A DNA stretch of 64,000 nt from Lichenibacterium ramalinae. GTDB taxonomy: Bacteria; Pseudomonadota; Alphaproteobacteria; Rhizobiales; Beijerinckiaceae. Location: NCBI RefSeq assembly GCF_004137085.1, contig NZ_QYBC01000018.1:1-64000 (forward strand), given 5' to 3'. The stretch's first letter is position 1, and every line of letters starts with the position of its first letter. Below the pieces are notes generated by a model. The model saw nothing but the letters and a program-made list of their open reading frames with translations, had not been told where the DNA came from and searched no databases. The position numbers and the translations under genes were made by a program. Below, in pieces: positions 456 through 4,804 of the stretch.

Positions 456-3400
456 ATGACCGGACGCCAACGCATCCTGCCCGTCAGGCGCGACTACAAT
501 CGCTGGGTCGCCGACGAGACGCTGGAAGACTTCGCGCTGCGCTTCACCGCCAAGGCGGCGCGGCGCTGGTCGTCGTCGCGCGTGTCGCAGACGGCGCTCG
601 GCGCCATCTCGTTCCTGGCGCTGGAAGCCATCGGGGGCAGCGTCACCCTCACCTACGGCTTCACCAACGTGCTGGCCGCCACGCTCGTGGTGGGCCTCGT
701 GCTCTTCGTCACCGGGCTGCCCGTCAGCATCGTGGCGGCGCGCTACGGGGTCGACGTCGACCTGCTGACCCGGGGCGCCGGCTTCGGCTACATCGGCTCC
801 ACCGTCACGTCGCTGGTCTACGCCACCTTCACCTTCATGCTCTTCGCCATCGAGGGGTCGATCATGGCGAGCGCGCTGAAGCTCGTCTTCGGCGTGCCGC
901 TGCCGCTCGGCTACCTCGTCAGCGCCCTCGCCGTCATCCCCCTGGTGACGCATGGCATCAGCTGGATCAGCCGCTTCCAGCTGCTCACCCAGCCGCTGTG
1001 GATCGGGCTGAACCTGCTGCCCGTGGGCTTCATCGCGCTGCACGACTGGCCGGCCGTCGCGGCCTGGACGCGCTTCGGCGGGCTCGGCGTGCCGGAGGGG
1101 GCCGGGGGGTTCGACCTCCTGAAGTTCGGCGGCGCCGCCTCCGTCATCCTGGCGCTGATGCCGCAGATCGGCGAGCAGGTGGACGTGCTGCGCTTCCTCC
1201 CCGCCCGGCCGGCGCCGGGCCGCGCGGCCCGCGCCTGGTGGCTGTCGCTGCTCGCCGCCGGCCCGGGCTGGATCGTGCTCGGCGCCCCGAAGCTGCTGTT
1301 CGGCTCGCTGCTCGCCGTGCTGGCGCTGCGCGCCGGCGTCGGGCCCGGCCATGCCGCCGACCCGGCCGAGATGTACCGCATCGCCTTCGGCCACGTGCTC
1401 GGCAGCCCCGAGGCGGTGGCGCTGCTCACGGCGGGCTTCGTCGTGGTGTCGCAGCTGAAGATCAACGTCATGAACGCCTATGCGGGCTCGCTCGCCTGGT
1501 CCAACGTGTTCTCGCGCGTCACCCACTCGCATCCCGGCCGGGTGGTGTGGCTGGTGTTCAACGTCGCCATCGCGCTGCTGCTGATGGAACTCGGCATCTA
1601 TGCGGCGCTGGAGCGCATCCTGTCGCTCTTCGCCGTGGTGGCGGTGGCGTGGCTCGGCGCCGTGGTGGCGGACCTCGCCGTCAACAAGCCGCTCGGCCTG
1701 TCGCCGCCCGGCATCGAGTTCAAGCGCGCCCACCTCTACGACATCAACCCCGTGGGCTGCGGCGCCATGGCGCTGGCGACGCTCGTCGCCCTGCTGGCGG
1801 CGGCGGGCCTGTTCGGCGAGGCCGCGGCGGCGCTGGCGCCCTTCGTGGCGCTGGGCACGGCGCTCCTCGCCGCCCCCGCCATCGCGGCGCTGACGCGCGG
1901 GCGCTTCTACCTCGCCCGCAAGCCCCGGGCCTCCTGGGGGGCGCTGCCGACGATCGCCTGTTCCATCTGCGCCCACCCGTTCGAGCCCGAGGACATGGCG
2001 CATTGCCCGGCCTATGCCGGCCCCATCTGCTCGCTGTGCTGCTCGCTCGACGCGCGCTGCGGCGACCTGTGCCGGCCGCGCGCCACCGCGCTGGCGCAGG
2101 GCACGGCGGCCCTGAAAGCCCTGCTGCCGCGGCGCTGGGGCCTGCGGGTCAGCCGCCCCGCCGTGCAGTTCGGCCTCACCTTCCTGTGCTTCGTCGCCGT
2201 GGTCAGCCTCGTGGTGCTGCTCATCCACGTCGGCGCCGCCGCCACGGGCCCGGACATCCGGCCGGTGATCGACCGCACGCTGGTGGCGGCCTTCGCCATC
2301 CTGTGCATCGTATCGGGCGTGCTGGCCTGGTTCTTCACCCTGGCGGGGGAAAGCCGCCGCGCCGCCCAGGACGAATCCGCCCGCCAGACGGCCCTGCTGC
2401 TGCAGGAGATCGACGCCCACCGCCGCACCGATGCCGAGCTGCAGCGGGCGCGGGACCGGGCCGAGGCGGCGAATTCCGCCAAGAGCCGCTACGTGGTGGG
2501 CCTCAGCCACGAGCTGCGCACCCCGCTCAACGCCGTGCTGGGCTACGCGCAGCTGCTGGAGCGCGACGGCGACCTGCCGCCGGCGCGCCAGAACGGCGTG
2601 CGGGTGATCCGCCGCTCGGCCGAGCACCTGTCCGGCCTCATCGACGGGCTGCTCGACGTGTCCAAGATCGAGGCCGGCCGCCTGCAGATCCGCGCCGACC
2701 CGGTCCGCACGGCCGAGTTCTTCGCCGGCCTCGTCGACATGGTGCGGCTGCAGGCCTCGGCGAAGGGCCTCGCCTTCCGCGTCGCCGGGCTCGACCTGCT
2801 GCCCCCCGTGGTGCGGACGGACGAGAAGCGGCTGCGGCAGGTGCTCATCAACCTCCTGTCCAACGCCATCAAGTTCACGCCCGCCGGCCACGTCGCCCTC
2901 ACGGTGGCGTTCCGCAACCAGGTCGCCACGCTCGACGTGTCCGACAGCGGCCCGGGCGTCGCCGCCGAGGACCGGGCCCGCATCTTCGAGCCCTTCGACC
3001 GCGGCCCCCAGGCCCGGGCCGATGCCGTGCCGGGCCTCGGCCTCGGCCTCACCATCACGAGGCTCCTCGCCGAGCTGATGGGCGGCGACATCGCCGTGCT
3101 GGACCCCCCGGCGGGCGGCGGCGGCGCGCTGTTCCGGCTGCGGCTGATGCTGGCGGCCGCCGCCGCGCCCGCCCTCGCGGCGGCGCCCCGCGCCGTGTCG
3201 GGCTATCGCGGGCGCCGCCGCACCCTCATGGTGGTGGACGACGACCCCGAGCAGCCGGTGCTGCTCCGCGCCATCCTGGAGCCGCTCGGCTTCGCCCTGC
3301 TCAGCGCCCGCGACGGGCCGACCTGCCTGTCGCTGCTCGCCGACGTCGCGCCCGACCTCTTCGTGCTCGACGTGTCCATGCCCGGCATGGACGGCTGGAC

Positions 3401-3845
3401 GCTGGCCCACGCCGTGCGGGCCCGCGGGCTCGACGCCCCGATCCTCATGATGTCGGCCAACCTCGGCGAAGTGTCGCCGGCCGGCGGGGCCGCGGCGGGC
3501 GAGGACGCCGACCACGACGCCGTGCTGCCGAAGCCCTTCGACCTCGCCCGGCTCATCGACAGCCTCGGCACCCTGCTGGCGCTCGACTGGATCGAGGGCC
3601 CGCCCGCGCCCCCGCCGCCGACACGGCCGGCGGCGGCGCGGGACCCCGATCCCGCCGACGTCGCGGAGCTCCGGCGCCTCGCCTCCATCGGCTACGTGCG
3701 CGGCCTCGAGGCCAAGCTCGCCGCCATGGCGGGGGACCCGGCCCAGGGCGCGCTGGTGGCGGCGCTGCGCGAGCGGGTGGGGCGCTTCGACCTCGACGGG
3801 CTGGCGGCGCTGCTCGACGGCGCGGGCGCGGAGGCCGCCTCGTGA
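456..3845 (+). CDS. Hybrid sensor histidine kinase with N-terminal NCS1-type permease domain
   Basis: This 1129-residue protein has three parts. Residues about 25-495 form a polytopic domain resembling NCS1 (purine/cytosine permease) carriers. A cysteine cluster follows (C502, C505, C517, C525, C528, C529, C535, C539), then two more membrane segments near 570-640. The C-terminal half is a hybrid kinase: HisKA with phospho-acceptor H685 in SHELRTPLN, an HATPase domain (NLLSNAIKF, DSGPG) and a receiver with acceptor D972 in VLDVSMPGMDGW. A short tail follows. It probably senses, and may transport, a small solute at the inner membrane and relays phosphate to the next gene product. ATG 456 is preferred because GGGGGA lies just upstream and the extension to 336 is proline- and arginine-rich. 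The stop overlaps the next start (GTGA), so the pair is translationally coupled. Solute identity is unknown. Confidence 0.88.
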   Translation: MTGRQRILPVRRDYNRWVADETLEDFALRFTAKAARRWSSSRVSQTALGAISFLALEAIGGSVTLTYGFTNVLAATLVVGLVLFVTGLPVSIVAARYGVDVDLLTRGAGFGYIGSTVTSLVYATFTFMLFAIEGSIMASALKLVFGVPLPLGYLVSALAVIPLVTHGISWISRFQLLTQPLWIGLNLLPVGFIALHDWPAVAAWTRFGGLGVPEGAGGFDLLKFGGAASVILALMPQIGEQVDVLRFLPARPAPGRAARAWWLSLLAAGPGWIVLGAPKLLFGSLLAVLALRAGVGPGHAADPAEMYRIAFGHVLGSPEAVALLTAGFVVVSQLKINVMNAYAGSLAWSNVFSRVTHSHPGRVVWLVFNVAIALLLMELGIYAALERILSLFAVVAVAWLGAVVADLAVNKPLGLSPPGIEFKRAHLYDINPVGCGAMALATLVALLAAAGLFGEAAAALAPFVALGTALLAAPAIAALTRGRFYLARKPRASWGALPTIACSICAHPFEPEDMAHCPAYAGPICSLCCSLDARCGDLCRPRATALAQGTAALKALLPRRWGLRVSRPAVQFGLTFLCFVAVVSLVVLLIHVGAAATGPDIRPVIDRTLVAAFAILCIVSGVLAWFFTLAGESRRAAQDESARQTALLLQEIDAHRRTDAELQRARDRAEAANSAKSRYVVGLSHELRTPLNAVLGYAQLLERDGDLPPARQNGVRVIRRSAEHLSGLIDGLLDVSKIEAGRLQIRADPVRTAEFFAGLVDMVRLQASAKGLAFRVAGLDLLPPVVRTDEKRLRQVLINLLSNAIKFTPAGHVALTVAFRNQVATLDVSDSGPGVAAEDRARIFEPFDRGPQARADAVPGLGLGLTITRLLAELMGGDIAVLDPPAGGGGALFRLRLMLAAAAAPALAAAPRAVSGYRGRRRTLMVVDDDPEQPVLLRAILEPLGFALLSARDGPTCLSLLADVAPDLFVLDVSMPGMDGWTLAHAVRARGLDAPILMMSANLGEVSPAGGAAAGEDADHDAVLPKPFDLARLIDSLGTLLALDWIEGPPAPPPPTRPAAARDPDPADVAELRRLASIGYVRGLEAKLAAMAGDPAQGALVAALRERVGRFDLDGLAALLDGAGAEAAS

Positions 3846-4804
3846 GCCTTCCTCCGGCCGGCGGCCCCACCCCGGGCGGCCCCGCCCCGGGCGACACCAC
3901 CCCGGGCGGCACCGTGGCGCTGCGCGACACCGTGCTGGTCGTCGACGACACGCCCGACACGCTGGGCTTCCTCACCGAAGCCCTGGAGCGGGCCGGCATC
4001 ACGGCGCTGGTCGCCACCGGAGGCCCGCAGGCGCTGGCCCTGGTCGGCCGCCTCGTGCCCGACCTCGTGCTGCTCGACGCCATGATGCCGGGGATGGACG
4101 GGTTCGAAACCTGCCGCCGCCTCAAGGCCGGCCCCGCCGCCCACGTGCCGGTGATCTTCATGACGGCGCTCAGCGACACCGAACACGTGGTGGCGGGCCT
4201 CGATGCCGGCGGCGTCGACTACGTCACCAAGCCCATTCGCCTCGACGAACTCCTGGCCCGCATCCGCGTCCACCTCGCCAACGCCCGGGCGGCGCGGAGT
4301 GCCCGGGCGGCGCTCGACACCTCCGGCGCCGCGCTGGTGGCGGTCGACGGCGCCGGCGCGCTGCTGTGGTCGACGCCCGGCGCCGCCGCCATGCTCCGCG
4401 CCGCCTGGCCGGAGGACGGGGCGTTGCCGGCCGGCCTCCCGGCGCGGCTCGCCGCCGGCCGCGACGCGCCCGGGCCCGTGACGGCGGCCGGGGCCGACGG
4501 CCGCCCGGCGCTGCGCTTCGCCCATCTCGGGGCGGCGGCGCCGGGGGAAACGCTGTTCCGCCTGAGCCTCCACGACGCCCGGCCCGACGAAGCCGTGCTA
4601 CAGGGGCGCTTTCCCCTCACGGCGCGCGAGGCCGAGGTGCTGCTGTGGCTGGCCCGCGGCAAGAGCAACCGCGACATCGCCGCCATCCTCGATCTCGCGC
4701 CCCGCACGGTGAACAAGCACCTCGAGACGGTCTTCGCCAAGCTCGGCGTCGAGAACCGCGCCTCGGCGGCCGTGCTGGCGACGCGGGCGCTGGGGGAGCG
4801 GTGA
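3842..4804 (+). CDS. LuxR-family response regulator, partner of the permease-kinase
   Basis: The 320-residue protein has an N-terminal receiver (VLVVDDTPDT; acceptor D79 in VLLDAMMPGMDG; conserved K in VTKPI). A middle segment of about 120 residues, poorly conserved in appearance, follows. The C-terminus is a LuxR-type helix-turn-helix (LTAREAEVLLWLARGKSN, then RTVNKHLETVFAKLGVENR). It should bind DNA once phosphorylated by the upstream hybrid kinase. The GTG start at 3842 shares four bases with the kinase stop. The first 25 residues are Gly/Pro/Thr repeats, so a later start is possible, but no better codon is seen before the receiver. No target operon is evident beside it. Confidence 0.9.
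   Translation: MSLPPAGGPTPGGPAPGDTTPGGTVALRDTVLVVDDTPDTLGFLTEALERAGITALVATGGPQALALVGRLVPDLVLLDAMMPGMDGFETCRRLKAGPAAHVPVIFMTALSDTEHVVAGLDAGGVDYVTKPIRLDELLARIRVHLANARAARSARAALDTSGAALVAVDGAGALLWSTPGAAAMLRAAWPEDGALPAGLPARLAAGRDAPGPVTAAGADGRPALRFAHLGAAAPGETLFRLSLHDARPDEAVLQGRFPLTAREAEVLLWLARGKSNRDIAAILDLAPRTVNKHLETVFAKLGVENRASAAVLATRALGER

Follow-up and report, generated by a model that had tools for sequence, protein, structure and literature searches.

The window analysed in this work is a stretch of 64,000 nucleotides from Lichenibacterium ramalinae, at the beginning of which two genes with overlapping ends are located (Table 1). The ORF (open reading frame) of the first gene was read directly from the sequence, and its start codon specifies the same methionine that is used by the orthologues. 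The encoded protein consists, in order, of a carrier, an eight-cysteine module, two helices, a HisKA/HATPase core and a receiver; the HisKA, HATPase_c and Response_reg domains all score well over the Pfam cut-offs, and their occurrence in one chain makes the protein a hybrid histidine kinase. In the secondary structure of the predicted kinase structure, helices extend over residues 567-594 and 602-658, and a membrane-crossing topology of residues 567-630 is probable from this model. The second gene begins with a GTG (3842-3844) that overlaps the TGA of the kinase gene (3843-3845), and its product is a NarL/FixJ-type regulator with a Response_reg domain at residues 31-142 and a GerE domain at residues 258-313. 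The ORF, Pfam and model data bear out the gene architecture claimed in the original prediction (carrier, cysteine cluster, HisKA/HATPase and receiver), as well as the GTGA overlap with a response regulator bearing a DNA-binding end. The regulator gene lies beside the kinase gene in the relatives too, and the recognition helix of the regulator is conserved across them.

Table 1. Features of the kinase-regulator locus in the window and the predicted regulator site
Feature	Position	Strand	Evidence
Kinase gene (product of 1129 aa): hybrid sensor histidine kinase that bears a carrier domain of the NCS1 type	456..3845 (ATG at 456, TGA ending at 3845)	+	ORF, Pfam
NCS1/LeuT-fold carrier domain, residues 23-484	522..1907	+	Structure model, Foldseek, VIA-align, BLAST to L120, profile match to CodB/Mhp1, residue mapping
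Module of eight cysteines, residues 502-539; a cytoplasmic cross-brace of the RING/PHD type is predicted, perhaps with two zinc ions	1959..2072	+	Invariance, separate model, weak Foldseek matches
Additional helix pair, residues 567-630, that runs into the coiled coil of the kinase and is probably transmembrane	2154..2345	+	Secondary structure of model
HisKA (DHp) domain, residues 676-741	2481..2678	+	PF00512, E 1.5e-16
HATPase_c catalytic domain, residues 788-899	2817..3152	+	PF02518, E 3e-24
C-terminal receiver (Response_reg) domain of the kinase, residues 925-1036	3228..3563	+	PF00072, E 5.5e-16
GTGA in which the stop codon of the kinase gene and the start codon of the regulator gene overlap	3842..3845	+	Sequence
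Partner of the kinase: response regulator of the LuxR/NarL type, 320 aa	3842..4804	+	PF00072, E 1.8e-28; PF00196 (GerE), E 8.9e-19
GerE DNA-binding domain, conserved recognition helix (A/S)PRTVNKHLE	4613..4780	+	Pfam, relatives
Candidate DNA site of the regulator: TACGTCRATTGACGTA			Predicted from palindrome

The last ~80 residues of the kinase, which follow the receiver (window positions 3600-3842), look helical and phosphotransfer-like, yet they contain no histidine at all, and the kinase chain has no His-phosphotransfer partner for its internal receiver. About 110 residues of the regulator, between its receiver and its DNA-binding domain (4268-4612), match no Pfam family and are perhaps a degenerate PAS domain.

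The N-terminal part of the kinase had been predicted to be an NCS1-like carrier. Direct Pfam, NCBIfam and PDB sequence searches with this part returned nothing useful: neither the window protein nor any of 31 relatives gave a direct match to PF02133 (Transp_cyt_pur), and the carrier domain gave no Pfam match to a solute:sodium symporter family. A profile of the sensor picked up a free-standing transporter, L120, at an E value of 4e-25. This transporter is the closest free carrier to the sensor; it is a member of PF02133 (36.4 bits against a cut-off of 23.5), and BLAST aligns it with the window protein over most of the length at 31% identity (E 2e-31). By using a mixed sensor/transporter profile, to which the transporter rows contribute, CodB (3e-23) and Mhp1 (4e-14) were found by sequence. 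The carrier domain was also modelled by AlphaFold2 with the 31 relatives (pLDDT 79), and the top Foldseek matches of the model were again CodB and Mhp1. VIA-align gave Z scores of 34.9 for CodB (rmsd 3.3, 397 residues aligned) and 26.5-30.0 for Mhp1, against 25.0 for the best non-NCS1 structure and 23.7 for a sialic acid symporter of the SLC5 type. Because the bridging transporter, the fold ranking and the mixed-profile matches agree, we concluded from sequence profiles and model that the carrier domain is of the NCS1 type and not SLC5. The predicted fusion of a hybrid kinase to a carrier of a family other than SLC5 was thus borne out, and the NCS1-like assignment itself held by way of L120 and the fold and failed as a direct match to PF02133; the lack of a significant transporter match is confined to the direct Pfam searches. 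Directly 3' of the L120 transporter gene (L120:9949-13168), an ORF resembling a nitrilase-family hydrolase is present, which may reveal an ancestral substrate.

In Mhp1, hydantoin is contacted by Gln121 and Asn318, and Ser312 takes part in sodium binding. The carrier domain resembles Mhp1 and CodB in fold (Z 26-35), in profile homology and in the substrate-site asparagine, Mhp1 Asn318 being kept as N340. It differs from them in the attached kinase and in several aligned residues: Gln121 corresponds to E133, Trp117 to L129 and Ser312 to K335. The invariant polar residues of the carrier, as determined from an alignment of 118 kinases, include E133, Q333, K335, N337 and N340. The lysine at the sodium-ligand position recalls sodium-independent relatives such as ApcT, and suggests that transport by this domain would be non-canonical at best.

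The cysteine spacing C-x2-C-x11-C-x7-C-x2-C-C-x5-C-x3-C, which had been given for residues 502-539, is exact in the sequence (Cys502, 505, 517, 525, 528, 529, 535 and 539). Conservation among orthologues, on which the earlier claim depended, was complete: the eight cysteines are kept without exception in 81/81 close relatives and in 118/118 homologous kinases from across Pseudomonadota, and they are absent from the free transporter. The other cysteines of the kinase vary (those at 435, 578 and 617 are kept in 1-2% of the sequences and that at 957 in 84%); therefore, the eight-cysteine pattern is more than chance. When the module was modelled alone from 44 sequences, pLDDT was about 90 over residues 494-523, and the top Foldseek matches, weak ones with a best E value of 0.26, were RING, PHD, ADD and FYVE fingers, almost all of them binuclear zinc cross-braces. 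Sequence profiles gave weak zinc-finger-like matches at most and no accepted Pfam match. The modelled fold thus weakly resembles two-zinc RING/PHD fingers, and the module may bind zinc. An Fe-S or redox role, part of the earlier reading of the cluster, found no support. Compared by position and Pfam only, the module sits where STAC is found in CbrA-type kinases, that is, between the carrier and two helices. The likeliest role for it, judging from the model, is that of a structural hinge; since the cysteines are totally invariant, a structural coupling element fits better than a tunable redox switch.

To gain a clue to what the kinase responds to, we considered its distribution and its gene neighbours. 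The contig collection searched contains 575 candidate loci encoding a relative of the kinase, and a near-complete sensor part is present in 52 of 398 sampled Pseudomonadota genomes. Among the 79 relatives with usable upstream DNA, 76 have a divergent urtA near the kinase gene, followed by urtBCDE and often by urease genes (urtABCDE and ureD/ureA were identified at these loci); three relatives (L002, L038 and L080) have no urt gene within 10 kb. At the genome level, 51 of the 52 kinase-bearing genomes also encode UrtA, compared with 167 of the 398 overall (Fisher 1e-20, a value that overstates independence because the species are related). In many Rhizobium, an unrelated and possibly phosphatase-like gene is inserted between the kinase gene and urtA (L054:7922-9859). 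A published genome paper lists a urtABCDE operon beside a hybrid kinase and a LuxR regulator, without analysis (PMC13296017).

The kinases of a sister clade have other neighbours, namely a urt-like transporter and the formamidase gene fmdA, often with the aliphatic amidase gene amiE. Of the loci that have the urt-like transporter, all 17 contain fmdA and 9 contain amiE as well, while fmdA occurs in none of the 78 urea-type loci. From these neighbours, formamide or short-chain amides would be the ligand in the sister clade. Two shorter sensors beside fmdA (L121:4502-7183 and L122:4666-7362) have the same carrier and cysteine module, no receiver and, in their loci, no urt-like genes. The window kinase falls in the urea clade with a support of 0.998; its own genome contains urease and, on another contig, urtABCDE, but has no FmdA that passes the family cut-off. 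The conserved neighbours at the kinase loci are urt, ure, amiE and fmdA. No conserved purine, pyrimidine or hydantoin genes were seen among them, and the link to these compounds, for which the original prediction had looked to comparative genomics, was rejected in favour of urea (urt, ure) or amide (urt-like, amiE, fmdA) genes.

Residues at positions 129, 339 and 392 separate the alphaproteobacterial urea-type from the amide-type sensors perfectly, but they may mark ancestry and not ligand, because the four urea-linked sequences outside the alphaproteobacterial clade have mostly amide-type letters there. The position of Mhp1 Trp117 is occupied by Leu in the urea clade and by Phe in the amide clade.

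These neighbourhoods also bear on the possibility that the cysteine module is itself the input, sensing a metal (zinc, or nickel in view of the nickel enzyme urease) or else redox state through an Fe-S centre, with the carrier as a scaffold. The invariance of the cysteines and the urease genes linked to the kinase in many loci would fit such a role. However, linkage is equal at formamidase loci that have no urease, the polar carrier residues are just as invariant as the cysteines, and the model and its Foldseek matches favour, weakly, structural RING/PHD-like zinc sites; we therefore consider a cysteine-borne input quite improbable.

The intergenic regions have in common ATACGTCGATTGACGTAG. 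This 16-bp palindrome, TACGTC-N4-GACGTA (TACGTCR-nn-YGACGTA), was found upstream of urtA in 76/76 urtA-linked loci when up to three mismatches were allowed, and in 0/4 loci of relatives that have no urtA in the available sequence. Where inserted genes part urtA from the kinase gene, as in many Rhizobium, the palindrome remains next to urtA. A weight matrix derived from the urtA-linked loci was applied to the urtA upstream regions of other genomes, and a score of at least 10 was reached by 28 of 37 regions from kinase-bearing genomes and by 0 of 40 from kinase-less ones (Mann-Whitney 3e-13, the species being related). Six other kinase-bearing regions (L239-L244), with scores of 5-9, have a variant resembling TACGC-N6-GCGTA, and four sampled kinase-bearing regions (L243, L220, L221 and L222) scored below 6. 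Several alphaproteobacterial amide-type loci (L137-L140 and L144) have no TACGTC palindrome; the variant TACGC-N6-GCGTA is found in upstream regions from genomes with amide-type loci (L235-L247), where the specificity of the regulator has perhaps shifted.

NarL sites have a 7-2-7 inverted layout that begins with TAC and ends with GTA. The palindrome matches this layout, and binding of the regulator to it is predicted. The regulator resembles NarL-type regulators in its REC and GerE domains and in this predicted site, and differs from them in the ~110-residue linker between the domains and in its predicted urea/amide regulon. In the 5.8-Mb genome of the window's strain, the palindrome occurs once (up to two mismatches allowed), 75 bp before the ATG of urtA on another contig. 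The neighbourhood of the kinase gene in this genome is uninformative, because the contig starts 455 bp upstream of its ATG and the window contains no copy of the palindrome. Control would be exerted in trans in this strain, since urtABCDE is on a different contig from the sensor pair.

Taken together, we predict, with a probability of roughly 0.7, that the gene pair is a transceptor two-component system in which urea is sensed through the NCS1-type carrier and urtABCDE is activated. Urea, or formamide or short-chain amides in sister clades, would bind in the pocket of the carrier domain, and the resulting conformational change would reach the kinase core by way of the cytoplasmic eight-cysteine module and the two helices. 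The kinase would thereby control phosphorylation of the NarL-type regulator encoded by the overlapping gene; phosphotransfer is assumed to be direct and to be modulated by the internal receiver. Dimers of the phosphorylated regulator would bind the palindrome upstream of urtA and, presumably as an activator, turn on urtABCDE, plus the urease genes where these are in the same cluster.

The same regulon would be expected if the carrier were mainly a working urea or amide importer whose flux is read by the kinase, as proposed for CbrA. The carrier is strongly conserved, including the invariant N340 (Mhp1 Asn318), and the carrier domain of CbrA has been reported to take up histidine (PMC13022988, PMC7096432). 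On the other hand, high-affinity urtABCDE is already there, an invariant lysine stands where Mhp1 binds sodium, and Ks-Amt5 is a precedent for a carrier serving as a sensory module (PMC5764959). We consider a main role in import unlikely and infer that the carrier senses without transport, or with little of it.

Neighbouring genes prove at most a regulon and not a ligand, so that the input could also be nitrogen status, ammonium or urea-loaded UrtA. For the last of these, periplasmic UrtA carrying urea, and not free urea in the carrier, would trigger the kinase by docking on the carrier domain. The close linkage of urtA to the kinase gene is in line with such docking, and kinase input via another protein is known in other systems; the receiver-less sensors L121 and L122, which stand beside fmdA with no urt-like genes in their loci, argue against it, and we regard it as very improbable.

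Urea sensing through the carrier would follow a principle already known from CbrA and Ks-Amt5. CbrA, CrbS and RpuS are SLC5/STAC histidine kinases in which, as here, a secondary carrier and a kinase form one chain; LuxR-type regulators are found in CrbS/R and RpuS/R too, and RpuS/R drives the uptake gene mctP through a repeat that is conserved in the promoter (PMC13022988, PMC5715377, PMC9100948). In contrast to these, the carrier of the window kinase is NCS1, its linker is an eight-cysteine cross-brace-like module with two helices instead of STAC/PAS, its predicted regulon is urea/amide and its predicted site is a 16-bp inverted repeat. In Ks-Amt5, a histidine kinase that senses ammonium, the fold of an uptake transporter has likewise been recruited for the sensing of a small nitrogen compound and is fused to the kinase; unlike the window kinase, Ks-Amt5 has an Amt trimer fold, another ligand and no cysteine module (PMC5764959). 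What is new here is the NCS1 carrier with the eight-cysteine linker; no description of an NCS1-kinase fusion was found in a search of the freely accessible literature.

More tentatively, and at somewhat less than even odds, these kinases may form an undescribed family of urea/amide receptors that is widespread in Pseudomonadota, as judged from the number of sampled genomes that encode a near-complete sensor part. In such a family, an NCS1 carrier with a lysine in its sodium site would have given up sodium coupling and become a direct urea sensor. Its state would be relayed to the histidine kinase by a bacterial hinge of the RING-like, two-zinc kind, which among the examined sequences occurs in these kinases only, and a handful of residues in the pocket (129, 339 and 392) would decide between urea and formamide.

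Few carrier-kinase transceptors have been characterised so far, and the window kinase adds another carrier family and another linker to them. Because the ligand class, the DNA site and the target operon are all predicted, the mechanism is open to immediate test. The sensor family is common in soil and plant bacteria, rhizobia included; the proposed system would explain the induction of urea and amide uptake in many bacteria, which bears on fertiliser nitrogen, and it could find use as a genetically encoded sensor of urea.
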